From NCBI RefSeq assembly GCF_025460835.1, contig NZ_JAMXAY010000019.1, positions 1 to 64,000 of the forward strand: a stretch of DNA of 64,000 nucleotides, read 5' to 3'. This stretch comes from Parapedobacter soli. GTDB taxonomy: Bacteria > Bacteroidota > Bacteroidia > Sphingobacteriales > Sphingobacteriaceae. Of this stretch, positions 535 through 15,657 are shown one piece after another (position 1 is the stretch's first letter; each line of letters opens with the position of its first letter). Under the pieces are notes generated by a model. The model ran no database searches and was not told the origin of the DNA. It saw only the letters and a list, made by a program, of their open reading frames with translations. Position numbers and translations under genes: made by a program.

Positions 535-1554
535 CTATTCGCTCGGTATATCCAACGTTTTGAGGTACTCCCGCGGTGATAGTCCATACTGCTTTTTGAA
601 CTGCCTGCTGAAAACGCTGGTTTCGGCATAGCCGATGGCCAGCGCGGCCTCGCTGATCGTAAGGTCTTCTTCAACCATGAGCCGGAGCGCTTCAGCCAAT
701 CGGCTTTCCATGATGTACGTTTGCAGTTTCTGGCCCGAACCCGCCCGATATCGCGCGCTAAGTGACCTTGCACCCAACCCATTCTGGTAAGCGATTGTGG
801 CAACGGAAGGTATATGGCCTGCTTTGATGTGGTTGTCTACCTGGCGGCGGATCGTTTCAACGAATGCCGCCTGCGCGTCTTGCGCCTGAGCGGTGGCCGG
901 ACTACGAGCGAGCCTCACCAGATGGCCCACCGGCGCGGCAATCGCAGCGTCCATCGGCTCACCGTCCAATTTGGGAAGCGACAATAATTCGGCAAGGTGG
1001 GGCATTGCCGAGGCAATGGCGGTATCTTGCGAAGTAACACACCGGTCCGCTTGCTTCCGTAAGGAAGCAACGAGCTTTTCAATAGGGTGGGCCTGATCCG
1101 CTTGATGGCGAATGAGCCACTTGGCTTTGGCTGCGATGGACACGCTGAGCGTATGAGGCTCGCTGATGTACATGGTTGCTTCCATCTTTGGGCTATATAC
1201 CTGCACTTGCCTACCCGCGGCCAGCTCAAGTTTGCAGCCTGTACCATCACGCGCGGGCTCGACTGTCAACCGCCCTTTAATCTGGTATAGCCAGTGCAGG
1301 TCGCGGTGCAGCGTTTCAATAGGAATGGCGAGCGGTAATGCATCGGGCTGCCTAACCTTGGTCTCCAGCACCACGAGGTATACATCAAAGGCGTCGTATT
1401 GTTGCAGGATAGCACCGCCGATTGGAGATTTGAAGTAGCTGGTTTGGTCGTGGGCGTAGGGTACTGTATAAGTAGGGAAAAAGGGAGCTGCCCTGACTTG
1501 TACTGCTGCCGGCAACGCGGCCTTGAGGTGTATGTTGATTGTGGGGTGCATCAC
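535..1554 (-). CDS. AraC family transcriptional regulator
   Basis: This 339-residue protein carries two C-terminal helix-turn-helix motifs of the AraC/XylS type in about its last 95 residues. The second motif, with AALAIGYAETSVFSRQFKKQYGLSP, is a textbook AraC recognition segment. The first 230 residues resemble no sensor domain I can name. It lies 77 bp downstream of the C39 ABC exporter on the same strand, so the two may share a transcript and the regulator may control the exporter or its peptide. Base composition is GC-rich, like the exporter and unlike the polysaccharide genes further right. The effector is unknown. Confidence 0.85.
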   Translation of the reverse strand: MMHPTINIHLKAALPAAVQVRAAPFFPTYTVPYAHDQTSYFKSPIGGAILQQYDAFDVYLVVLETKVRQPDALPLAIPIETLHRDLHWLYQIKGRLTVEPARDGTGCKLELAAGRQVQVYSPKMEATMYISEPHTLSVSIAAKAKWLIRHQADQAHPIEKLVASLRKQADRCVTSQDTAIASAMPHLAELLSLPKLDGEPMDAAIAAPVGHLVRLARSPATAQAQDAQAAFVETIRRQVDNHIKAGHIPSVATIAYQNGLGARSLSARYRAGSGQKLQTYIMESRLAEALRLMVEEDLTISEAALAIGYAETSVFSRQFKKQYGLSPREYLKTLDIPSE

Positions 1555-1631: not shown

Positions 1632-3713
1632 TTAATGGATAGGATATAAGGGCTGTCTTTCGTGAATCGGCGTGAGATGGATACGATGGTCGGCAATGGC
1701 GAGCGACTGCGGCCGGTGGCTGATGAAAATAACGGTCATTCCTCGGCCGCGGCAGTTTACCAAGCAGCGGTGAACAGCAGCCTCTGCGTCGGCATCGAGT
1801 GCCGCCGTGCCCTCGTCGAGTATGAGTACCTCCGGTTGCTTGTAGAGTGCACGGGCAATGGCAATCCGCTGGCGTTCACCCCCGGACAATGCCGTGCCGC
1901 GCTCGCCCATCGGCGTGTCCCAACCCAAGGGCAGGGCGTTGACGAGTGCCGTTAACCCGACCTCTTCAAACACGTCGGCCAGTCTGCCTGTATCGGGCAG
2001 GTCGGGTGCATATACATTTTCGGCGATGGTGCCATCCATAAAATCGGGCTGCTGGGCAACGATACCCATGCGCCGCTGGATGGTTTGCAGGCTGATGAGG
2101 TGCAAAGAGTGGCGGCCCAACCGGATACTGCCGCTTGATGGCGCGTAGCGCTTGGTGAGGAGATGCACCAAGGTGCTTTTTCCCGATCCGCTCTCGCCCG
2201 TAACCACCGTGATGCGGCCGGCGGGAAAATGGCAATCAAACCCTTCGAATACCGGCAGCCCGCGGTCGTATGCAAACCCAACACCTTCGAAACGGATGTC
2301 GCCGATGCGGTCGGGCTGGAGTAGCGTGGCATGGGCGGTTTCAGCGGGTGGTATGGCCTGCAGGTCCTGCAGGTGGGTGCTGGCCGTGCGTGCGTCGTGC
2401 CACGTTTGGCTCAGGTGGGCCAGTTGGTAGGCTGCCCGGTGGAAATAACCGCTGAGGGCATATACGGCCAGCACCTCGCCAAATGTTAGGGCGCCTCCGA
2501 GCACCAATGCAGCGCCTGCCCACAAAAGGGCCAGCGTGGTGCCCTGGGCGATACCGTCTGCAGCGGTTTCTGAAAACACACGGTTCAACCCGGACCGGTA
2601 ATCCGCCCGCAACACCTTATCCAACCGGGCTTCGAGTTTGTTAGCAGCGAGGGGTTCCGTGCCACTGAGGCGGTGTGTATGTATGGTGTGTAGCGTATGG
2701 GCAAGCTCGGCCTCAAAATCTGCTTGTGCAGCGATGAGCCGGTGCTGGCTGTGCCGGTTCCACCGGCCGGCGAGCGCATGGACAATAACGTAGCATACCA
2801 GTGCCCCGGCAAAGAGTAGCGCCAGCCGATAATGGCTGGTCAGCAGCAGTGGCAGCAGAACGGCAACAGTAAATAGGGGCATGGTGCATTGGATGAAAAG
2901 ATCGCAAGCAAAGTTGCGCAGCTGCACGGCATTGCCTACACGTGTGAGTAGCTCGCCGGTGCGGTACCGATCGAAGACCGGTAATGGCAAACGCAGCAGG
3001 TGGCGGCAGAAGCTACCGATAAGCCGCGCGTCGAGCTTGCGGCTGATACGCAGCAGGAGTGTCGTCCGCCACACGTTGCTGGCCTGCTGTAGGCAGAAGG
3101 CAGCCAACATGGCAACGCCAAGCGTCACCAGCAGGCCGGTGGCTGCCCGGGGTAAAATATGGTCGGTGATGGTGAAAATGAAAAATGCACTGGCGTACGA
3201 GAATAATGTATAGCAGGCGGTGGCTGCAATAGCCAGGGCCACGGGCTTGCGATGGGGGTAAAGCAACAGCCAAATGCGCCGCAGCAGCGAGGGCGGTCCA
3301 TCCTGGAGGCCGAAGCCGGCATTGGGTACCAGCAGGATAAGCACATGCTGCCACACTGCAAGGAATGCGCCGCGGCGATGGCGATGGAAATCCCCCATGG
3401 CCGGATCCATGACATGGATCCAACGGGATGTTACCTTTCTTACCACCACGTAGTGGGGCAGCCCATCTTGGCCTGCCAGTAGTGCAATGCAGGGAAGCTG
3501 CACTTCAGCCAGGTGGTCGTCTGTGGCCCGTATAGCGGCGTGCTCGAAACCGAGCGCATCAGCGGCATACTCCATGTCGGCCACGGTAGCCTGTCCCGGG
3601 GGCAACAACAAGCGCACTTCAGCCAATGAAACAGCACAGCCATAGTGTGCCGAAATGGCTGCTAAGCAGGTCGCCCCGCAGTCGTGTTCACCCTGTTGTT
3701 GAATGCGTCGCAT
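1632..3713 (-). CDS. Peptidase-containing ABC transporter (C39 domain; bacteriocin-type export and leader cleavage)
   Basis: This 693-residue protein has the three parts of a peptidase-containing ABC transporter. Residues 1-130 are a C39 cysteine protease with catalytic Cys12 (in DCGATC), His87 (in LPHYVV) and Asp103 (in VMDP). The middle, about 160-430, is a hydrophobic six-helix exporter domain. The C-terminus is an ATPase with Walker A GESGSGKST, signature LSGGERQR and Walker B VLILDEGTAALD. The family cleaves double-glycine leaders and exports the peptide across the inner membrane. A 62-residue peptide with such a leader lies nearby at 4449-4637 on the same strand. No HlyD-type adaptor is seen in the window. 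It could serve peptides encoded elsewhere, but the local candidate is the simplest substrate. Confidence 0.92.
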   Translation of the reverse strand: MRRIQQQGEHDCGATCLAAISAHYGCAVSLAEVRLLLPPGQATVADMEYAADALGFEHAAIRATDDHLAEVQLPCIALLAGQDGLPHYVVVRKVTSRWIHVMDPAMGDFHRHRRGAFLAVWQHVLILLVPNAGFGLQDGPPSLLRRIWLLLYPHRKPVALAIAATACYTLFSYASAFFIFTITDHILPRAATGLLVTLGVAMLAAFCLQQASNVWRTTLLLRISRKLDARLIGSFCRHLLRLPLPVFDRYRTGELLTRVGNAVQLRNFACDLFIQCTMPLFTVAVLLPLLLTSHYRLALLFAGALVCYVIVHALAGRWNRHSQHRLIAAQADFEAELAHTLHTIHTHRLSGTEPLAANKLEARLDKVLRADYRSGLNRVFSETAADGIAQGTTLALLWAGAALVLGGALTFGEVLAVYALSGYFHRAAYQLAHLSQTWHDARTASTHLQDLQAIPPAETAHATLLQPDRIGDIRFEGVGFAYDRGLPVFEGFDCHFPAGRITVVTGESGSGKSTLVHLLTKRYAPSSGSIRLGRHSLHLISLQTIQRRMGIVAQQPDFMDGTIAENVYAPDLPDTGRLADVFEEVGLTALVNALPLGWDTPMGERGTALSGGERQRIAIARALYKQPEVLILDEGTAALDADAEAAVHRCLVNCRGRGMTVIFISHRPQSLAIADHRIHLTPIHERQPLYPIH

Positions 3714-3806: not shown

Positions 3807-4448
3807 ATGATTCCTCACTTCCATGAAGCGATGGTGAGTTATTTGTTTTTGGCATTGGTATTCGTTACCAGCGTCGTGGGTCTCTTTCATCGCTCATTCT
3901 ATTATGCCAATATTTTCCAGCCTAGTCAGGTTTTTTCGGGCAAAAGGGTATGGACCTTGTTTTCTTCGGCACTGGTACACGGTAGTTGGATGCATCTGCT
4001 GGTCAACGTAGGGTTTTGCCTCGTTTTCATGTCGGAGGTGGAATATATGTTGGTAGATGATTTCGGCCCATTGGCAGGGCGAGGGTATGCCGTTGCGTTG
4101 GCGCTTATCATCATAATCACCAGTAACCTGATCGACGGTTTCCGGTTGCGCGCCAACAGCATGTCGGCAACCGTCGGCATCTCTACCCTGGCGTGTGCTA
4201 TGGCTGTGTTTTATTTCATTTACTTTCCGTTGGATGGAGAAGATACGCCAAGTTATATTTTTCCTTCGTTTAAGGCTTTTCATATTGCATTAGGTCTTGT
4301 GGCTACGTTCAGTCTGGCAGCGATTTTTCGTGTAAAAGGAAACCAATTCAGCCACTTAGTCGGGTGCCTGCTCGGCATGATGACCGCGGTCGTTATACGG
4401 CCCGCCTTGATTGCTGAAATGGCTTCCTACATATTCACTGGGTCTTGA
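3807..4448 (+). CDS. Rhomboid-like intramembrane protein
   Basis: This 213-residue, multi-helix membrane protein has rhomboid landmarks. His58, His63 and Asn67 have the family H-x4-H-x3-N spacing, and His183 sits in FSHLVGCLLG, like the catalytic His helix. The GxSG serine motif is altered to SMSA, so Ser120 could still be the nucleophile, but the usual glycines are gone. It is divergent from the C39 exporter (93 bp apart), and its stop codon abuts the stop of the double-glycine peptide gene at 4449. It may be a real protease, a non-catalytic relative, or a membrane immunity protein for the peptide. The last is inference from position only. Confidence 0.75.
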   Translation: MIPHFHEAMVSYLFLALVFVTSVVGLFHRSFYYANIFQPSQVFSGKRVWTLFSSALVHGSWMHLLVNVGFCLVFMSEVEYMLVDDFGPLAGRGYAVALALIIIITSNLIDGFRLRANSMSATVGISTLACAMAVFYFIYFPLDGEDTPSYIFPSFKAFHIALGLVATFSLAAIFRVKGNQFSHLVGCLLGMMTAVVIRPALIAEMASYIFTGS

Positions 4449-4637
4449 TCAGAGCGCAAACAGAATGCCGCCTATTCCAAATAGATTTATACCGATAAGG
4501 AGTTTGCCTGCTTTCCACGCGATGGAATTTGGCCGGCGAGCGCCGCCGTTGAGTAATTCTTTTTCCGCATTGTCAATAAGCATGGCCCCAGTAGGGATGC
4601 GCAATGTTTGGTGGTTTTTTACTGAACACTTTTTCAT
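4449..4637 (-). CDS. Putative double-glycine-leader bacteriocin or secreted peptide
   Basis: This 62-residue ORF has a hydrophilic leader with ELLNGG at residues 27-32. Position -8 from the cleavage point is Glu, -4 is Leu and -12 is Ile, matching the usual double-glycine leader pattern except for Lys at -7. Cleavage after Gly32 would free a 30-residue peptide. That peptide begins ARRPNS (cationic), has one Trp, and ends in a glycine-rich hydrophobic stretch with GKLLIG and FGIGGILF, as in membrane-active class II bacteriocins. The C39 exporter that could process it lies on the same strand about 0.7 kb downstream. The gene is also divergent from the XRE regulator gene. The alternative is an ordinary small membrane protein whose GG is coincidental. 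Confidence 0.55.
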   Translation of the reverse strand: MKKCSVKNHQTLRIPTGAMLIDNAEKELLNGGARRPNSIAWKAGKLLIGINLFGIGGILFAL

Positions 4638-4724: not shown

Positions 4725-4760
4725 AGAACTGGCGGTTCTTAATTCAGAACTGGCAGTTCT
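4725..4760. promoter_or_regulatory. Tandem palindromic operators upstream of the XRE gene
   Basis: Two 15-bp palindromes, AGAACTGGCGGTTCT (4725-4739) and AGAACTGGCAGTTCT (4746-4760), lie 21 bp apart start to start, about two DNA turns. The flanks extend the pair to a larger dyad from GTAGAACTG to CAGTTCTAC. They lie in the 153-bp gap between the XRE gene (start 4791) and the divergent double-glycine peptide gene (start 4637). This is the expected layout for XRE autoregulation and shared control of the peptide promoter. Binding by this XRE protein is inferred. Confidence 0.65.
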
Positions 4761-4790: not shown

Positions 4791-5102
4791 ATGGAAAATC
4801 TCGATAAGATACCCACGGTGGGTGGGCGGATTAAGTATATCCGCGAAGCCAAAGGTTATATGCAGATTGGGGTGGCCATGGGTGCTGGGATTTCACAGAA
4901 GGCTCTGTCTAAAATCGAGCTGGATCAAACCAATCCGTCGATTTACCGCATATACCGCATTGCTGAAAGCCTGGGCGTGGATGTGTATACGCTGATTCCG
5001 AAGGAGCGATGGAATTCGGCTTATTCCGTTAGCGGCATATTCGGGCATGTGTTGATACGGGTATTGAAATGGACGAGAAAGAGGAATACGAACCGCCGAT
5101 AG
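4791..5102 (+). CDS. XRE family helix-turn-helix regulator
   Basis: This 103-residue protein has a Cro/C1-type helix-turn-helix over about residues 10-65. GGRIKYIREAKGY is the first helix, ISQKALSKIELDQTNPS covers the recognition helix and turn, and YRIAESLGVDVYTLIP closes the fold. The C-terminal tail is basic (LKWTRKRNTNRR). Two palindromes 30-66 bp upstream of its start are likely its own operators. Divergent placement from the double-glycine peptide gene suggests it sets expression of that peptide. No sensor domain is visible, so the signal is unknown. Confidence 0.85.
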   Translation: MENLDKIPTVGGRIKYIREAKGYMQIGVAMGAGISQKALSKIELDQTNPSIYRIYRIAESLGVDVYTLIPKERWNSAYSVSGIFGHVLIRVLKWTRKRNTNRR

Positions 5103-5996: not shown

Positions 5997-6665
5997 ATGG
6001 CAGTATTCAAAAAAGGGATCAACGGTGCATTCTCAGGCACCATTGGCAACACCGTAGGCAGCAGCTGGCGCCATATCGATTACATGCGCAGCTTGCCTAA
6101 ACCCAGTAAGAAACCGGCTTCGCCGGCGCAACTTGCCCAGCGGGCCAAGTTTGCATTGGCGGTCAGTTTCCTGCGGTCGATAAAGCCGCTGCTCAACCTG
6201 GGCTTTAGCGACAAGATGAGGGGCAAGCAAACGGGCTACAACCAGGCATTGAAGGTGATGATTGCCAACGCAATAGTGGGTGAATACCCCGATTTCACCA
6301 TAGACTATGCCAACGTGGTGCTGGCACAGGGCGGACTCAATCCGGCCCCGTCAGCGGTGCTGGAACAAACCGCACCCGGGCAGCTGGCGCTGAGCTGGGA
6401 GCCCATAACCAATAAATACACCAGCTTTGCCGACGACGAGGCGGTAGTGGTGGTGTACAATGTTTCCAAGCGCTTCATGAATGTGTACGATGGTATCGAG
6501 CGGAGTGTGGGGAGCATGGACATCGCTGTGCCGTCGTCGTTCGAGGGCGATGAGCTGGTAGCATGGGTCTTTATGGTGCACCGCGACGGGGAGAAAACCT
6601 CCGATAGTGTATTCGCCGGTACTTTGGTGCTGGCCGGGGAGACTGAACCGGATCCCGAACCGTAA
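5997..6665 (+). CDS. DUF6266 family protein
   Basis: This 222-residue protein has the signature opening of DUF6266: FKKGINGAFSGTIGNTVGSSWR, a conserved YMRSLPKPSKKPASPAQLAQR segment, then an alpha-beta region. The family is common in Sphingobacteriaceae, usually as lineage-specific copies next to DUF5675 genes, and has no established function. No signal peptide or membrane segment is visible. The C-terminus ends in an acidic EPDPEP tail. A hairpin with a T-run follows it, so it may be transcribed separately from the genes downstream. Codon usage is GC-rich, like its neighbours. Confidence 0.85.
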   Translation: MAVFKKGINGAFSGTIGNTVGSSWRHIDYMRSLPKPSKKPASPAQLAQRAKFALAVSFLRSIKPLLNLGFSDKMRGKQTGYNQALKVMIANAIVGEYPDFTIDYANVVLAQGGLNPAPSAVLEQTAPGQLALSWEPITNKYTSFADDEAVVVVYNVSKRFMNVYDGIERSVGSMDIAVPSSFEGDELVAWVFMVHRDGEKTSDSVFAGTLVLAGETEPDPEP

Positions 6666-6672
6666 TCTATTC

Positions 6673-6705
6673 AGCAGCGGGGTATCTCTACTCCGCTGCT
6701 TTTTT
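6673..6705 (+). terminator. Rho-independent terminator or attenuator after the DUF6266 gene
   Basis: AGCAGCGG (6673-6680) pairs with CCGCTGCT (6693-6700), and a run of five T follows at once (6701-6705). It lies between the DUF6266 and DUF5675 genes, so it would end or reduce transcription before the latter. Confidence 0.75.
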
Positions 6706-6726
6706 CACCTATTGAGAAATAAAAAG

Positions 6727-7209
6727 ATGGAAACGAAAATAATCCGCGTGGCCCAAGGGAAGGACAGTACCCTGAGCCACCTTTATATCGGCGGCCTGTT
6801 CTGCTGCTACTTGCTGGAGGATACCATCCGCAAGAAGAAGATCCCGGGGCTTACGTGCATCCCCGAGGGGGAGTATGGCCTCTCGCTCAACCACTGGGCG
6901 GGGATGAACGCCAAGTATGCGCTGAGGTACCCCAAGATGCATGAAGGTATGGTGGAAATCACGGAGATACCAAATTTCCAGCTGGTGTTCTTCCATACGG
7001 GCAACTACCACACGCAAACGGCGGGCTGCCCGCTCACGGGGTCGTACTGGCAGCGGCTGGATGGCGACTATCAGGTGATGGGATCGCGGGCTGCGTATCA
7101 GTATGCGTACCCGATGTTGGTAAAGGAGATCAGGAGGGGGAATGATCGGTTGACGGTTGTGAATGAAGTGGTGTTTAAGTGGGGGATGGGGGAGGCGTGG
7201 CAGCCGTAA
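6727..7209 (+). CDS. DUF5675 family protein (possible cell-wall active fold)
   Basis: With the start at ATG 6727 the protein has 160 residues. It matches DUF5675 in style: METKIIRVAQGKDSTLSHLYI at the N-terminus and a central FHTGNYHTQTAGCPLTGS. That central stretch, with a His-Gly followed after about ten residues by a Gly-Cys, recalls the HG...GC active site of YkuD-type L,D-transpeptidases. That resemblance is my own reading and not an established assignment. No signal peptide is seen, which fits phage-type enzymes that rely on a holin-like partner. Two very small proteins follow, the second with a membrane segment. Confidence 0.75.
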   Translation: METKIIRVAQGKDSTLSHLYIGGLFCCYLLEDTIRKKKIPGLTCIPEGEYGLSLNHWAGMNAKYALRYPKMHEGMVEITEIPNFQLVFFHTGNYHTQTAGCPLTGSYWQRLDGDYQVMGSRAAYQYAYPMLVKEIRRGNDRLTVVNEVVFKWGMGEAWQP

Positions 7210-9427: not shown

Positions 9428-11032
9428 TCATCTAAGCAATTCCACAAAGATCGGCGTTTCTGTCACCGTTAGTTTAATTTTTCCGTTTTTTACTGAAGTG
9501 ATAACAGATTGTGCTGAAATTGCTTCTGCATCTAACTGATATATCTTAACTTGTTTGGTTTGGTTACCTAAATCCAACTCATAGTCAACACTGCGTCCCT
9601 GCTCGTCAGGCACCACCAACGAATAAATTGTCCGATCGTCTAATACATACTTGTCAACAAAAGGATCATCGCTGATAGTAGATTGATAATAGAACTCTCC
9701 AAGGATCTCTTTTGCCTGTTGTAAATAATTCCAGGATGGTTTAGTCGTCCATTCGGCACTTTCTTTGTCAATGAAACCGGAAGACATATATTGTGTTGTA
9801 CTGTTTGCGTTAACATCATGCAGCATGTAAAAGAATAATTTGCTAACACCATTTCGTGCATAAAGTAGTGAGGTACGAAGAATCCAATCGGCCTGTGTAA
9901 TCAATGCTGACTTATTTTTTATTGGGATCGCTTTCTGGTAACTATTCTGATTGATATCATATCCAGACTCTGTATTCCACACTGGAATACTATTCGTGTG
10001 TCCATTGGATAATATCACGAATTGTTGTGCGATGCTGGCTGCATTTGATAGTTCTGGAGCAACCCCCCGTTGCTTAGTTGGATTGTTTTCAGTTTCTCTG
10101 TTTCGAGCATAATGATGATAGTTTATCACATCAAAACATAGGTCAATCGTCCCATCTGGTTTTCTACCGCGGTATTTTTCACACCAATCGATTATCTCTT
10201 GGACGTAACCTGGATCAGGAGTTGCTATCCCTGCCATTACCACCTGCATATTAGGATCTGCATTCTTGACGCCTACGTCGTGCCCCAATTCTCCTTGGTG
10301 ACCGTCATAAAAAGCAGAAAGGTTGGCCGCATACTCCGAAGGAGTTTGCCGCGCTACCTTAGTTGGCTTCCATATACGATCCGGCTCATTGTTACATTCG
10401 ATGTATTGAATAAGCCCAGATCCAATAATCTTTTTGTTGGGATTGTAATGTGGAACTGGTTCTACGTGAACCAAAGAGGGGTCAACGTCCTGATTGCTGC
10501 CGTACCTCGCCGCATACTGAAATGCCAGTTTCCCGAAATCAATATAGGATGCGGGGTCCGATAAATCGGCTCCGAAAACGGCCGGCACATTCTCTACATC
10601 ACGCTTTTCTTCCGGATAAGTTTCCAAAAGCCAGTCAGGTATTGTTTTAATACAGGCGAGAACTGTAATATCGTTTGCTTTACACCATTCGTAGATTTCA
10701 TCGTATTTCCATCCTCCCCTAGGCGTCGGATTATAACCATATTTTCCCTTTTCTGACTCAATCTGCCGCCAATCCAAGTAATGCCTGACATTAGAGAACG
10801 GTTTAAAGAATCGAGAATCTTCGGTTGGATTATTCTGTGATCCGAAATTCCATTCGAACGCATTTACACCGAGCATATCTTTAAATTTGACTTTCGAATG
10901 AGGTATGCCAGGCAATTCATTATCGGTGATATCGCCACTTGCAATCGATTTTCTTGAACAATTACTTCCCAAAAGCATCAGTAAGCCCGACAGTAGAATC
11001 CAGTATCTTGGGAATGAGAAGGACATTTTCAT
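9428..11032 (-). CDS. Secreted lipoprotein glycoside hydrolase (clan A TIM barrel)
   Basis: This 534-residue protein has an N-terminal hydrophobic signal and a lipobox-like GLLMLLGSNC, predicting an outer-surface or periplasmic lipoprotein. The barrel shows clan A features. ECNNEPDRIW carries an Asn-Glu-Pro acid/base site and VWNTESGYD a likely nucleophile Glu. CFDVINYHHYAR and LFFYMLHD also fit GH5/GH39-like enzymes. I cannot fix the GH family or substrate. It is transcribed away from the TolC-like gene. Its promoter region shares the palindrome at 11222-11239, though the matched -7 box faces the TolC-like gene. A role in trimming or releasing the exopolysaccharide made by this locus is likely. 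Confidence 0.8.
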   Translation of the reverse strand: MKMSFSFPRYWILLSGLLMLLGSNCSRKSIASGDITDNELPGIPHSKVKFKDMLGVNAFEWNFGSQNNPTEDSRFFKPFSNVRHYLDWRQIESEKGKYGYNPTPRGGWKYDEIYEWCKANDITVLACIKTIPDWLLETYPEEKRDVENVPAVFGADLSDPASYIDFGKLAFQYAARYGSNQDVDPSLVHVEPVPHYNPNKKIIGSGLIQYIECNNEPDRIWKPTKVARQTPSEYAANLSAFYDGHQGELGHDVGVKNADPNMQVVMAGIATPDPGYVQEIIDWCEKYRGRKPDGTIDLCFDVINYHHYARNRETENNPTKQRGVAPELSNAASIAQQFVILSNGHTNSIPVWNTESGYDINQNSYQKAIPIKNKSALITQADWILRTSLLYARNGVSKLFFYMLHDVNANSTTQYMSSGFIDKESAEWTTKPSWNYLQQAKEILGEFYYQSTISDDPFVDKYVLDDRTIYSLVVPDEQGRSVDYELDLGNQTKQVKIYQLDAEAISAQSVITSVKNGKIKLTVTETPIFVELLR

Positions 11033-11355
11033 ATAAAGTGTTTATTGAATACGCAAATTGAATAATTAATTCGTAAACGAAATTAATATTTTCATGAATA
11101 TATTTTTGTCATTTAATGAACGGTATATATTTAGTAACGAAAATAAATTTCTTTAATTATCTTCTTTTTAAAATGCTATTACAGGATGGGAATTCCAAAT
11201 CGCGTGCCTGAGTCACTTGTTTGTAGTTTATATGCTACAATCGCTAATTATGTGCAATAAAAACCATTTAAGTCAGTCTGATATCCGATACTTTTGTTTT
11301 GACTAATATGAAAAACATTATTGAATCTGTCTAAAATAAATAAAAGAAAAAAGGC
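11033..11355. other. 323-bp AT-rich divergent promoter region
   Basis: The gap lies between the divergent glycoside hydrolase and TolC-like genes. It is AT-rich and holds the locus palindrome (11222-11239) and the TACTTTTG box for the rightward operon. I see no ORF or further strong repeat in it. Confidence 0.7.
11222..11296 (+). promoter_or_regulatory. Locus palindrome plus -7 box for the polysaccharide operon
   Basis: TGTAG-N8-CTACA lies at 11222-11239 (centre 11230.5) and TACTTTTG at 11289-11296 (centre 11292.5), a 62-bp spacing. The box is about 60 bp before the TolC-like start. No good -33 TTTG lies at the usual distance, which fits an activator-dependent promoter. Confidence 0.8.
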
Positions 11356-12033
11356 ATGAAATACTGGATACCCATTTTTTTTGTATTTGCGAGCACCGTT
11401 ACATTAAGAGCGCAGGAGTCGATCATTAGCGAGATCAACTATCCGTATTTGGAGAAGTTGATCGAATCGGCACGCGAGAATAATTTCAGAAAGAAAATAT
11501 TTGAGGCGTCGGAAGTAAGCTCAAGGGCAAGTGTAACTGCAGCCAAGGCTTCTTACTTGGATATGTTCAACGCCGCGTATTACTACAGACCAAATCAACG
11601 TCCTTCAGTTAATGTGGACAACCCGTATCTTGTCAATGGGTTTCAGCTTGGGGTGCATTTAAGTTTATCGACATTGATAAAAACACCAGGGATTGTAAGG
11701 CAAGCCAAACAACAGCGTGAGATTTCGGAATTGGAGCGTAAGGAATATGAAGTCACTTTAGAAAATGAGGTCAAGTCCAGATATTACAACTATGTGATGT
11801 TAAACAACCAACTCGAAATAAGTACACAGGAGGTTCAGGATAACAAGCTTATTCTTAATCAATTGCAAAGTAAGTTTGAGTTGAACGAAGTGGATTTGGA
11901 AACCTATAATTCGGCAAAATCTGCTTTGGCTGGATCCAAGTCTGCTTTGATGCAAACCGAAGTTCAATTCCTAACTGCGAAGGATGCACTGGAGGAAATT
12001 ATTGGTGTCAAGTTGGAAGACATAACTGATTAA
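11356..12033 (+). CDS. Half-length TolC-like outer membrane protein
   Basis: This 225-residue protein has a signal peptide (IFFVFASTVTLRAQ). One long helical hairpin follows: the region from ISELERKEYEVTLENEVKSRYY through STQEVQDNKLILNQLQSKFEL to ALEEIIGVKL is typical of the OEP domain of TolC proteins. TolC proteins usually have two OEP repeats in about 450 residues; this one has one. It starts the rightward polysaccharide operon, 21 bp before the Wzc-like gene. It may replace the missing Wza-type outer membrane exporter, forming a pore as a larger oligomer. No frameshift remnant is seen, so the short form looks genuine. Confidence 0.75.
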   Translation: MKYWIPIFFVFASTVTLRAQESIISEINYPYLEKLIESARENNFRKKIFEASEVSSRASVTAAKASYLDMFNAAYYYRPNQRPSVNVDNPYLVNGFQLGVHLSLSTLIKTPGIVRQAKQQREISELERKEYEVTLENEVKSRYYNYVMLNNQLEISTQEVQDNKLILNQLQSKFELNEVDLETYNSAKSALAGSKSALMQTEVQFLTAKDALEEIIGVKLEDITD

Positions 12034-12054
12034 ACATTTTAACTATTATCATTC

Positions 12055-14202
12055 ATGATTGACTTTGGTGGTTTATTCAAATACTTATTAAAGCATATCT
12101 GGCTTATATTGGTCTTGACACTGGTGGCCGTCGGCGCGACTTATTATTTTACGAAAGACATGCCCGATTCCTATTATTCCGAGGCGCAGATATCTACAGG
12201 TATTACCGATCTGGCAAAGATTGACGGAAGCTTGGCATCGAATTACATGCAAATCAGACAGACCTATGATAATATCATGGGCATGATGTCTATGAAACGC
12301 GTTCTGGCGATCGTATCGCATATCTTGGTTATCCATGACCTGGAAACACCTGAACATGCGTTTAGACCTTATCCGGAAAATCTTCAAGCACTGGATGAGG
12401 CGACTCGTAAACAAATCGTGGATGAATTGAAAGCACGACTTATTTCGGGGCGTGTGATTTTGACTAATACAGATGAAGTGGGAGGTTTTAAGCTTGTCGA
12501 TGTTGTCGGGTCGCTGGGGTATGATGAGGGTAGCCTACAAGAGGGAATGTCGGTAAAACGTTACGGAGAAAGTGATTTTATCAATGTCGGATTTGTCTCC
12601 GAAAACTCCGAACTTTCAGCCTTTATTGTCAACACGCTTACTTCAGAGTTTATTCAGTACTATCATACATTTCGATCGGCTAATGAGACTAAATCCGTTA
12701 TTCTACTGGATTCATTGTTGCAAGAGAAAGAACGAGTTATGCAAGATAGGAATGAAGCGTTGAAAAACTATCGTGTTAGCAGTGGGATCATGGATGCTTC
12801 TTCGCAATCGGCTGCGTTATACAGTCAAATTACGGCACTGGAAAGTCAACGAGCTGATAAGCTTACAGAAATCCAATCGTTGCAAGGAGCAATTAAGGAT
12901 ATTAAAGCTCAGTTGGCTAATCCGAACAACAGCCTGTTAACGTCGCCAGACTCGCGTGTAAACAATGCATTGCTTGAGATAGATCAGCAACTGCAAGCGG
13001 CGAATAGAAAGTATATTAATAATAATTTTAACCCAACCGATAAACAACTCGTAGATTCTTTACAACGTAAACGAAATGAAATTGCAGAGATGGGTCTTGG
13101 GGTGTTGGGTAACAACGGAGCGATGGAAAGCAGGCGAAGTCTCGAGGCAGAATTAATCCGGCTTGAAACAGCACTCTCGCTCGCCAAGAATGGTATTGCG
13201 TCTATCGAAAATGAGCTTGCTAGAGCTAAAGGCCGTCACAGTGCCATGGTTCCGATGGACGCCGGATTACAGAATCTTCAACGTGAAGCAGATATAGCCA
13301 CACAAGAATACATGGAAATCCTAAACCGGACCAATCAAGCCGGTTTCGTATCGAATGTCGGATTGCGATTGAGTATTGTTGAAGTTGCCTTGCCCGGAGT
13401 AAAAATTACATCAAAACGGTTCATTTACATCGGACTTTCTGGTTTCGCGACATTTATGTTCTGTATGTCGGTTTTCACGTTACTGTTTATATTGGATCGC
13501 CGAGTGGTGACCAAAGATCAGCTTGCTGCCTTGACGGATGGAAAGGTACTTGGCGTATTGAATCTGATTGACGAATCATATGCCGGAATACGTAGCGTGT
13601 GGGACAACAATACCACGGTAGATGCGGTCATGTATAAAGATTTGTTGCGCTCGTTGAGGTTTGATTTGAACACGGAGCTGACTATTAATAAATCGAGGGT
13701 ATTGGGTATCACCAGCCTTACTCCCGGCGCCGGTAAATCTTTTTTAGCAGTGAGTCTGGCCTATGCATTTGCCGTGACAGGAAAGAAAGTATTATTGATC
13801 GGAGAACAAACCTATGATTTCTTTGGTAGTCAGAACGAAACGGCACGGGCCGAGCAGGCATTCGAGCAGTTTTTGGTAAAGCGTGAGATACAGATTGAAG
13901 ATTTAATTACCACCCTAACACGGAATACACACCAAAATTCTCTCATGGAATTGCAGGATATGGAAAATCTTATGGCGGGATTTGGTTTGCTCCGAAATGA
14001 GTTTGATGTTATCATTATCGACACCGATAGTTGTCAGAACCTTAATCAAGTGAAAGAATGGTTGATGTTTTCCGATGTAAGTATCGGTGTCTTTGAATCC
14101 GGTAAAGTGGTCTCCAATCGTGAGCGGGATTTAATTAAATACCTCGGAGAACATAAAGGGTTTTTAGGTTGGGTACTCAATAAGGTTAGGTTGAGTGCTT
14201 AA
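12055..14202 (+). CDS. Wzc-like polysaccharide co-polymerase with degraded tyrosine-kinase domain
   Basis: This 715-residue protein has a first membrane helix at about residues 12-30, a large periplasmic region with long coiled coils, and a second helix near 455-482. A cytoplasmic P-loop ATPase follows, with Walker A TPGAGKS near residue 560 and Walker B DVIIIDTDS. This is the architecture of Wzc/BY-kinase chain-length regulators. The Walker A' segment, normally LIDxDxR, reads LIGEQTYDFF, and there is no C-terminal tyrosine cluster. Kinase activity is therefore doubtful, while nucleotide binding may persist. It would control chain length and export together with the upstream TolC-like protein. 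Confidence 0.85.
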   Translation: MIDFGGLFKYLLKHIWLILVLTLVAVGATYYFTKDMPDSYYSEAQISTGITDLAKIDGSLASNYMQIRQTYDNIMGMMSMKRVLAIVSHILVIHDLETPEHAFRPYPENLQALDEATRKQIVDELKARLISGRVILTNTDEVGGFKLVDVVGSLGYDEGSLQEGMSVKRYGESDFINVGFVSENSELSAFIVNTLTSEFIQYYHTFRSANETKSVILLDSLLQEKERVMQDRNEALKNYRVSSGIMDASSQSAALYSQITALESQRADKLTEIQSLQGAIKDIKAQLANPNNSLLTSPDSRVNNALLEIDQQLQAANRKYINNNFNPTDKQLVDSLQRKRNEIAEMGLGVLGNNGAMESRRSLEAELIRLETALSLAKNGIASIENELARAKGRHSAMVPMDAGLQNLQREADIATQEYMEILNRTNQAGFVSNVGLRLSIVEVALPGVKITSKRFIYIGLSGFATFMFCMSVFTLLFILDRRVVTKDQLAALTDGKVLGVLNLIDESYAGIRSVWDNNTTVDAVMYKDLLRSLRFDLNTELTINKSRVLGITSLTPGAGKSFLAVSLAYAFAVTGKKVLLIGEQTYDFFGSQNETARAEQAFEQFLVKREIQIEDLITTLTRNTHQNSLMELQDMENLMAGFGLLRNEFDVIIIDTDSCQNLNQVKEWLMFSDVSIGVFESGKVVSNRERDLIKYLGEHKGFLGWVLNKVRLSA

Positions 14203-14226
14203 ACACCATAGCAAATAACAAATACC

Positions 14227-15657
14227 GTGAAGCAGTTGTTGTACAATATCCAGCACACCAGAAAGACAAAAATTGTGTTAATCCCGGCACTTTTGGGATT
14301 AGCGTTGTTAACGGCATACTATACCGTCATCCTAGGTTTGGTTTTTCCAATTGCAATGGTATTATCAGCCTTGCTAGTCATCTGTTTAGCTGTCTTAGTT
14401 AGCTATCCAGTCGCTGGTTTGATGGGTACGGTGGTTTATTGTTTTATTCTCCCAATCGTCGGACGAGAATTAATGATAAATTTTCCCTTTGGTATTGGTG
14501 TGGAAGTACTGCTGATTTTGACCTTGTTGGTTGCCGTTTTCAATAAGTACAAAACTAATTGGGCCGATGCCAATAACGACATGGTTAAGCTCGTCATACT
14601 TTGGTTTATTATCAGCGTACTGCAAGTTGCCAATCCATCAGGAGCAAGTGTGGTTGGGTGGTTTAATGAGATTCGAGGAACTGCATTGAACATGTTGTTG
14701 GTGGTTCCCTTGGCGTGTGTAGTAGTGCAACGAGAGAAGCACCTTAATTTATTCCTTTACATTGTGATAGCTTGGTCCGTTTTCGGAGCATTGAACGGCA
14801 TTAAACAATTGTATATAGGTTTGTCACCGGGAGAACAAGTTTTTTTGGCACAAAATGAAACTACCCACCTTATTCGTGGTGTTATCAGGGTATTCTCCTT
14901 CTATACCGATGCAGGGCAATTTGGGGCTTCGATGAGCCATATAGCACTCGTTTCCTGGATATTGGCTATGGGCAGCTTCAAGTTATGGAAGCGGGTATTA
15001 TTTTTCGGGTTAGGATGCTTGTTATTTTATGGTATGATCATTTCCGGTACACGGGGAGCTCTTTTTGTTTTTTCTGGGGGTTTAATTGGTTTATTCCTGA
15101 CTAAGAACTTTAAGATGCTTATTGCTGGATTGCTCATATTGGGTATGCTTTTTTCCTTTCTTAAGTTTACGGATATCGGTCAAGGTAGTTATCAGGTCCG
15201 TCGACTGCGTTCGGCTGTAAACCCAGAACAAGATGCGTCATTTCTTGTTCGACTTAACTCTCAAATGAAACTTGCAGACTATTTGAAATATCGACCATTT
15301 GGAGGTGGCTTGGGAACGATAGGAGGGAATGGGGAGAAATATAACCCAGGTACGTTTTTAGCGTCGGTAGCACCAGATAGCTACTGGGTAAAGGTTTGGG
15401 CAATGTATGGAATTGTGGGGCTCATCATTTGGTTCGGTATGAACATGTATATCATGGGTAAATGTTGTGGGATTATCTGGCGCATAAATGACCCTCACCT
15501 TCGCATTAAGTTGATTGCGCTCATTTCGGGCGCTATAGGGATTTTCGTAGCCAGTTATGGAAACGAGGTTATCAACCGGACACCTTCTTCCATATTGGTT
15601 TTTATATCTTGGGCAATTATCTATAATGCGCCCAAGTGGGATAAACACTCATCATAG
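14227..15657 (+). CDS. O-antigen ligase/polymerase-like membrane protein (Wzy type)
   Basis: This 476-residue protein has about 11-12 hydrophobic helices and starts at GTG 14227, 24 bp after the Wzc-like stop. A large loop near the middle carries SPGEQVFLAQNETTHLIRG and ISGTRGALFVF. The next loop, with RPFGGGLGTIGGNG, has the GxGxG-type pattern common in Wzy polymerases and O-antigen ligases of the Wzy_C family. It would polymerise lipid-linked repeat units in the periplasm. Ligase and polymerase cannot be told apart by eye. Place in an operon with Wzc-like, flippase and glycosyltransferase genes favours polymerase. Confidence 0.82.
   Translation: MKQLLYNIQHTRKTKIVLIPALLGLALLTAYYTVILGLVFPIAMVLSALLVICLAVLVSYPVAGLMGTVVYCFILPIVGRELMINFPFGIGVEVLLILTLLVAVFNKYKTNWADANNDMVKLVILWFIISVLQVANPSGASVVGWFNEIRGTALNMLLVVPLACVVVQREKHLNLFLYIVIAWSVFGALNGIKQLYIGLSPGEQVFLAQNETTHLIRGVIRVFSFYTDAGQFGASMSHIALVSWILAMGSFKLWKRVLFFGLGCLLFYGMIISGTRGALFVFSGGLIGLFLTKNFKMLIAGLLILGMLFSFLKFTDIGQGSYQVRRLRSAVNPEQDASFLVRLNSQMKLADYLKYRPFGGGLGTIGGNGEKYNPGTFLASVAPDSYWVKVWAMYGIVGLIIWFGMNMYIMGKCCGIIWRINDPHLRIKLIALISGAIGIFVASYGNEVINRTPSSILVFISWAIIYNAPKWDKHSS

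Follow-up and report, generated by a model that had tools for sequence, protein, structure and literature searches.

Double-glycine (GG) leaders follow a pattern of hydrophobic residues at positions -4, -7 and -12 with Glu at -8. Gram-positive blp and pln loci are peptide-induced, with a histidine kinase and a response regulator beside the pheromone gene. Among bacterial rhomboids, AarA is a GlpG-like comparator. In bacteroidetocin loci, as far as the accessible part of their description goes, the peptides contain two or more cysteines, and a five-transmembrane protein of unknown kind is encoded alongside, usually together with a thiol oxidoreductase (PMC6671954). CAAX proteases occur in bacteriocin loci according to the available portion of another report (PMC9298176). 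A figure legend, the part of the paper at hand, lists a rhomboid protease gene in the class IIa caseicin operons Cas1 and Cas2 of Lacticaseibacillus (PMC12634818), and in the accessible sections of a further paper a rhomboid gene figures only as a species marker (PMC10967575). No description of a pairing between a GG peptide and a rhomboid was found in the accessible text of the open-access literature, a scope outside which subscription papers mostly, and bioRxiv preprints wholly, fall.

Here we show that a gene for a GG peptide of Parapedobacter soli lies tail to tail with a rhomboid protease gene, close to a C39 exporter and an XRE-type regulator. The window, by which we mean the whole stretch of 64,000 nucleotides analysed, holds the features collected in Table 1. 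The preliminary description had presented the locus as a local find comprising substrate, processor, possible immunity protein and regulator. The GG peptide, the C39 exporter and the XRE gene with its palindromes are all present and recur together. The genes at the locus were confirmed, and the find is not merely local: the cassette recurs, its rhomboid subfamily occurring in 32 of 399 genomes of the family.

Table 1. Features of the peptide-rhomboid locus, by position in the window
Feature	Position	Strand	Basis
AraC-type regulator, 77 bp downstream of exporter	535..1554	-	PF12833; homologue in 6/34 loci, window counted
C39 peptidase-containing ABC exporter, 693 aa	1632..3713	-	PF03412 E 7.9e-24, PF00664, PF00005; Gln6, Cys12, His87, Asp103
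C39 peptidase domain	3321..3704	-	sole C39 domain found in genome
Rhomboid protease gene, peptide-paired subfamily	3807..4448	+	PF01694 56.7 bits, cut-off 22.6; His58, Asn67, Ser126, His183
Double-glycine peptide gene, 62 codons (62-aa precursor)	4449..4637	-	same-place homologues in two Parapedobacter, dN/dS 0.16, alignment
Predicted mature peptide, 30 aa: cationic start, hydrophobic G-rich C-terminal half	4452..4541	-	cleavage inferred
Leader, 32 aa, ending ELLNGG	4542..4637	-	GG retained in both close homologues
Operator-like site AGAACTGGCGGTTCT, 15 bp	4725..4739		fits AACYNNNRGTT common to cassette loci
Operator-like palindrome AGAACTGGCAGTTCT, 15 bp, perfect	4746..4760		fits AACYNNNRGTT
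XRE-type regulator	4791..5102	+	PF01381 E 3.8e-11; homologue in 33/34 cassette loci

Every element proposed earlier for the 62-residue ORF was found at its place, namely the ELLNGG end of the leader with Ile at -12, Glu at -8 and Leu at -4, but Lys at -7, and the cationic, Gly-rich 30-mer. The predicted mature peptide has a net charge of +4, a hydrophobic and Gly-rich second half, and no cysteine. A single-sequence search of 201 family genomes recovered homologues of the 62-mer in two other Parapedobacter genomes (62% identity, E 3.7e-19; 30% identity, E 0.007), in both of which the gene converges directly on that of a rhomboid homologue (identity 53% and 35%, respectively) and has a C39 exporter near. 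Most other matches up to E 1 were taken as chance, leaving two convincing relatives; a match in genome G019 (E 0.066) was judged genuine by its position. Loss of the leader or GG in relatives had been named as grounds for refutation; the GG is retained in both homologues and, together with the RR that follows, is invariant in all three peptides. The dN/dS ratio between the window peptide and its closest homologue was 0.16, and eleven additional pairs gave 0.07-0.39 in the nine that were computable, two being saturated. Since homologues occupy the same place, dN/dS is 0.16 and 31 of 34 related loci have a convergent GG-type ORF, the 62-codon ORF goes beyond chance and is a real gene. The peptide had no family match in Pfam and a chance match only in NCBIfam; it is probably secreted and is bacteriocin-like.

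The stop codon of the rhomboid gene, claimed to abut that of the peptide gene, does so with a gap of 0, the two genes lying on opposite strands. Among 30 aligned rhomboids of the subfamily the TM2 residues His58 and Asn67, Gly124 and the catalytic Ser126 are invariant, and the column of the catalytic His183 holds His in 29; the exception, L086, is apparently a misalignment. Since these catalytic residues are conserved, selection appears to act on an enzyme and not merely on a binding protein. Their retention fits an enzyme acting on the peptide, and immunity, signalling and maturation would all be compatible with it. The window rhomboid scored below the cut-offs of the rhombosortase (28.6 against 84 bits) and GlpG (16.3 against 250 bits) equivalog models, and PF01694 was the only domain found when a CPBP/Abi domain was looked for. 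GlpG alone among solved structures was matched by the rhomboid profile, and weakly (best E 0.0024); a structure predicted from a three-row alignment was poor (pLDDT 46.8). One cassette rhomboid found no match in plasmid records at E 1e-15.

The exporter lies on the same strand as the peptide gene, as had been claimed, and has the domains PF03412, PF00664 and PF00005; by its residues Cys12, His87 and Asp103 the predicted peptidase is catalytically intact. A single C39 domain, that of this exporter, was found in the 5.17 Mb genome, and the 62-mer is the sole candidate substrate found for it there. Because the rhomboid gene sits between peptide and exporter on the other strand, the three do not form an operon; the AraC-type gene and the exporter are possibly in the same operon. 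Ten window genes tested included no histidine kinase or response regulator, the regulators among them being the XRE and AraC proteins and a weak HTH_17-like match. Searches of the window for matches to the cassette HlyD or TolC found none. The one TolC-type gene found in the window (11356-12033) lies 6 kb off on the other side of the cassette, where a TolC-type outer membrane protein (PF02321) is followed by Wzz-like and Wzy_C genes (11356-15657) in what looks like a polysaccharide export cluster. Elsewhere in the window, four giant ORFs on the minus strand (28196-55885; 3028, 2173, 2191 and 1761 aa) look like a non-ribosomal peptide synthetase cluster, because the two tested contain condensation, AMP-binding, PP-binding and thioesterase domains. 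A VapB-family antitoxin gene (119-480; NF050009, 85.5 bits, cut-off 60) is followed by a 51-aa ORF that may be a toxin remnant.

A divergent XRE gene with palindromic operators had also been described, and both the PF01381 domain and two 15-bp palindromic sites between the XRE and peptide genes were found. Across 34 loci the motif AACYNNNRGTT was counted 63 times in 18.0 kb downstream of the rhomboid, 17 times in 13.6 kb just before it and 34 times in the remaining 547 kb, a count that is partly circular, the motif having been read off the peptide-XRE gaps and then counted there, so that only the sites before the rhomboid, and the lack of sites in control loci, are independent evidence for the operator. 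At least one site lies downstream of the rhomboid in 28 of the 34 loci, and spacings of 20 and about 31 bp recur among loci. Sixteen loci, fourteen of them with HlyD, have the motif 67-108 bp before the rhomboid match; in mapped loci where the HlyD gene run is adjacent (e.g. L071, L072, L085) it diverges from the rhomboid. The window has no site within 400 bp before its rhomboid, its two sites both lying between peptide and XRE. None of 20 control rhomboid loci had the motif 30-560 bp downstream of the rhomboid. The cassette XRE proteins are 94-119 aa long, and the three tested match HTH-type domains only. Many of them, as their alignment shows, end in a hydrophobic and then basic tail, and might associate with the membrane.

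We searched 399 family genomes with a rhomboid profile, which gave 34 places of at least 97.9 bits in 32 genomes, the rest scoring 85.1 bits or less; the score line for the subfamily was set after this gap was seen. The 34 loci considered are the 33 loci of the upper class (two of the 34 places are in tandem in one locus) and L086 (85 bits), added for its neighbours; L023, L061, L083 and L086 are truncated by contig ends. These loci span six genera. At the rhomboid stop, 31 of them have a small convergent ORF that carries a GG, AG or GS site. The leaders of the 31 peptides end in GG or AG (NGG in the window), and those of L023, L056 and L059 lack Glu at -8. Of the 31 pairs of peptide and rhomboid stops, 29 have a spacing of -21 to +26 nt, with an overlap of exactly 4 nt in nine, and two loci have a longer antisense overlap. 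A C39 domain was detected by tblastn in 26 of 33 fetched loci, that is, 27 of 34 with the window. Neighbour clustering placed an XRE gene in 33 of 34 loci (the copy of L068 on the other strand, that of L081 about 5 kb away); HlyD was found in 17 loci and a TolC-type gene in 10, the copies of L071 being domain-checked. Because HlyD and TolC are present to this extent, part of the cassette loci carry what are, by homology, full type I export systems. The rhomboid is the only gene common to nearly all loci apart from XRE and exporter. Six loci (the window, L022, L056, L058, L059 and L086) lack HlyD and have, upstream of the rhomboid, a gene homologous to that of the AraC protein; the far end of this gene is about 3.2-3.5 kb from the rhomboid in the five mapped ones, and the available stretch of the contig-end locus L086 has no C39. 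Genes for DUF6266 and DUF5675 proteins are found at 5997-7209 of the window. The genomic site of the cassette seems to be common within the genus, because DUF6266 is near the cassette in L022 and L056 as well.

C39, XRE and HlyD were all absent from 20 ordinary rhomboid loci of the family, including ten from cassette-bearing genomes. Crude filters for convergent GG-like ORFs passed one in 20 class-wide control loci (a 21st had no rhomboid ORF) and, in a looser form, four in 20 of the family set, the outcome varying with filter and set, and none was judged to have a convincing leader. A class-wide rhomboid search (395 genomes, 15 of the same family, with at most seven candidates scored per genome) gave no place near the subfamily scores, the window reaching 237 bits, the next place 134 (same family) and the best outside the family 124.5. 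We hold with high confidence that peptide, rhomboid and exporter make up a co-regulated, functional cassette.

How specific the pairing is was examined from the side of the peptide. Searched with a profile of the 31 peptides, the 399 genomes gave 33 places of at least 39 bits, 32 of them inside cassette loci; 30 of these 32 were members of the profile and the other two were the copies of L081. Exceptions occur in both directions. Genome G028 (L138) has a peptide and a divergent XRE gene, without a subfamily rhomboid and without C39 within about 8 kb, and the L068 and L073 loci have rhomboid and XRE but neither peptide nor C39. The peptide is duplicated in L081 (3386-3523 and 7835-7981), where the rhomboid-side copy is degenerate and the intact one lies 4.4 kb away beside the XRE gene, two large ORFs separating them. 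A second kind of GG peptide, with the leader MNNLELKxxGVQELxxxEMVxxxGG, was found in 113 of the 399 genomes. It is present in 14 of the 34 cassette loci, a fifteenth having a 29-aa fragment only, and L082 has seven such bacteriocin-like ORFs (10317-15026); the model behind this count in the cassette loci was itself built from 12 leaders belonging to ten of the loci that it recovered. Of 18 second-kind peptides, 12 are recognised by the class IIb lactobin A/cerein 7B model with an E-value of 0.01 or below (best 4.7e-8); none of this kind was found in the window genome. Because 92 of the 113 genomes lie outside the 32 with the subfamily rhomboid, the predicted rhomboid pairs, by its distribution, with the convergent peptide specifically and not with GG bacteriocins generally. 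With XRE distances controlled for, rhomboid and peptide distances correlated weakly in a partial Mantel test (r 0.18, permutation share 0.03, 22 loci), a result that carries little weight here.

The 31 mature peptides fall into two forms. Eleven, the window peptide included, are 26-38 aa long with a Gly/Pro-containing transmembrane-like segment; for L022 the scripted choice of site took an earlier AG, which leaves the segment unaffected. The other 20, all from genus g16, are 20-24 aa long, near-neutral and amphipathic, with a conserved charged N-terminal motif. In cross-validation a model of the 20 g16 peptides recovered 6 of the 11 peptides outside g16, three with E-values of just 0.12-4.4, and the reverse model had at least 15 of the 20 among the matches listed. 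Since the g16 model misses the peptides of the window, L022, L023, L056 and L058, the Parapedobacter-type peptides are tied to the other cassette peptides less by sequence than by position, GG and partners. In 22 loci without the pair, the best match to a model built on all 31 peptides had an E of 0.59. Against curated families, the cassette peptides matched Bacteriocin_IIc PF10439 in 6 of 31 cases (best 3.7e-6), the class IIb model in 4 (best 0.005), the MccV model in 1, the competence pheromone ComC model in 4 (best E 4.4e-4) and the VP1 pheromone model in 1 (E 0.0057), and nothing beyond these general double-glycine bacteriocin and pheromone models. Matches to the bacteriocin and ComC models are taken to reflect mostly the leaders. 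A different set of proteins, L071:2898-3230 and its homologues (16 in 15 of the 34 loci, none in the window's cluster), is 104-162 aa long with an HTH-like N-terminal part and a leader-like site (mostly I-S/N-A/G-G) near the end, before a short tail often ending in FFV, FFVH or FFEH. They look like DNA-binding-like proteins with a putative C39-type cleavage site near the end; the one tested had no match in Pfam.

We tentatively favour, with somewhat less than even confidence, the reading that the peptide is of bacteriocin type and that the dedicated rhomboid destroys it in the membrane of the producer as a means of self-protection. Judging by the operators, the XRE protein would bind the palindromes in the gap that separates its gene from the peptide gene, and so repress the system. 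On release the precursor would be made, the C39 domain would cut after Gly32 and the ABC part would export the 30-residue peptide. This is expected because the peptide has a GG leader and the sole C39 exporter lies next door, and because removal of the leader by the C39 domain is established behaviour of peptidase-containing exporters. The mature peptide would be membrane-seeking, and the rhomboid, in what is the least certain step, would cleave copies inserted in the inner membrane and so protect the producer. Rhomboids choose intrinsically unstable transmembrane helices, according to the accessible part of the work on their substrates (PMC3494066). Three things favour self-protection in the window: a membrane-seeking, Gly-rich peptide of the unstable-helix type, the conserved catalytic residues of the rhomboid, and two loci that retain only rhomboid and XRE. 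Orphan immunity genes are kept without their toxin gene, and L068 and L073 are likened to them. The reading also draws on the convergent GG/AG ORFs in 31 of 34 loci, on C39 and XRE genes that ordinary rhomboid loci lack, on the PF10439 and MccV matches, on the Gly/Pro-containing transmembrane-like segments of 11 peptides and on the pairing of the rhomboid with this peptide in particular. Several observations speak against it. Twenty of the 31 mature peptides are short and not transmembrane-like; such amphipathic peptides suit a signal at least equally and are not obvious rhomboid substrates. The rhomboid gene is on the opposite strand and hence not co-transcribed with the peptide gene, and G028 keeps peptide and XRE without the rhomboid. 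The window peptide belongs to no Pfam family found, and the window has no match to the cassette HlyD or TolC. Because fourteen cassette loci hold separate bacteriocin-like GG peptides, the peptide paired with the rhomboid need not be the toxin.

The strongest rival reading is signalling, since most of the peptides resemble short pheromones in size and form and the same 14 loci hold separate bacteriocin-like genes, which in L071 stand on the same strand just beyond HlyD-C39-TolC. The GG peptide would then be an exported pheromone that the rhomboid senses or trims, and accumulation of the peptide would switch on the XRE regulon, made up of peptide, XRE, rhomboid and exporter, together with the separate bacteriocin-like peptides in loci that have them; we consider this rather unlikely, though a serious alternative. 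It would account for the charged N-terminal motif and 20-24 aa amphipathic form of 20 of the 31 peptides, for the ComC and VP1 matches and for the operator before the rhomboid in 16 loci, 14 of them with HlyD. It sits less well with the ten tested window genes, which include neither a histidine kinase nor a response regulator, with XRE proteins of only 94-119 aa in which HTH-type domains alone were matched, and with the window itself, where the peptide is cationic and transmembrane-like and the genome has no separate GG peptide of the second kind. We are aware of no path that would link a rhomboid to an XRE protein. In comparison with blp and pln loci, rhomboid and XRE would replace the kinase and response regulator. 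An intramembrane protease of another kind, the CAAX protease SilX, is apparently needed for a bacteriocin signal peptide of S. anginosus, as stated in the available portion of that report (PMC9298176). The fuller form, in which a secreted GG signal is sensed or processed by the dedicated rhomboid and feeds an XRE regulon that includes the bacteriocin export operon in some loci, we regard as unlikely; if true, it would mean bacterial peptide communication built on intramembrane serine proteolysis in place of a two-component system.

It is improbable, in our estimate, that the rhomboid matures the peptide, C39 removing the leader and the rhomboid then freeing for export a peptide that had stayed in the inner membrane. 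The transmembrane-like peptides of the Parapedobacter loci without HlyD, the weak resemblance to rhombosortase (28.6 bits, cut-off 84) and the conserved catalytic residues agree with such a role, which is at odds with the retention of the rhomboid in loci with HlyD-C39-TolC and short amphipathic peptides and, in two loci, without any peptide. Intramembrane proteases such as the site-2 protease are already known as bacteriocin receptors from the accessible part of one report (PMC10202637), and the rhomboid could be a receptor or target of the peptide and not a scavenger, as RseP is for LsbB-family bacteriocins; this is very improbable, as a producer would then encode its own target beside the toxin, and would do so in almost all of the peptide-bearing loci found. 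That the pair is a neighbourhood without function, kept together by overlapping stops and shared antisense transcription only, is hardly credible in spite of the tight convergence in 29 of 31 loci, for operators, exporter and XRE recur in six genera and are absent from 20 ordinary rhomboid loci.

Under self-protection as under its rivals, a rhomboid subfamily accompanied by an exporter, a regulator and a single, constant small peptide offers a natural candidate partner for a bacterial rhomboid, and a role of the rhomboid in substrate cleavage, self-protection or signalling thereby becomes directly testable. The cassette also highlights a group of Gram-negative small peptides for which no matching curated family was found beyond the general double-glycine bacteriocin and pheromone models.

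With class II microcins and the class IIb and IIc double-glycine bacteriocins the cassette has in common the GG leader, the C39 ABC exporter and, in part of the loci, HlyD and TolC, and some of its relatives match the models PF10439, PF17508 and TIGR03949 at weak to moderate E-values. It differs from them in the convergent rhomboid as constant partner and in XRE control, and no classical immunity protein was recognised among the genes tested. Bacteroidetocins share the phylum Bacteroidetes, the GG leader and a C39 ABC exporter beside the gene; unlike the peptides in the accessible part of their description, with their two or more cysteines, the mature peptide of the window has none. The rhomboid of the Lacticaseibacillus caseicin operons, likened by name in the figure legend at hand only, belongs to a Gram-positive system with a separate immunity gene (PMC12634818). 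GlpG has the rhomboid domain and the catalytic Ser and His in common with the cassette rhomboid, which falls far below the GlpG equivalog cut-off and is encoded with a peptide export cassette. The CAAX/Abi proteases of bacteriocin loci, which act in immunity and in SilX processing, are likewise intramembrane proteases dedicated to a GG-peptide locus; in contrast, the cassette protease is a rhomboid serine protease and not a metalloprotease, and its gene is convergent with that of the peptide.
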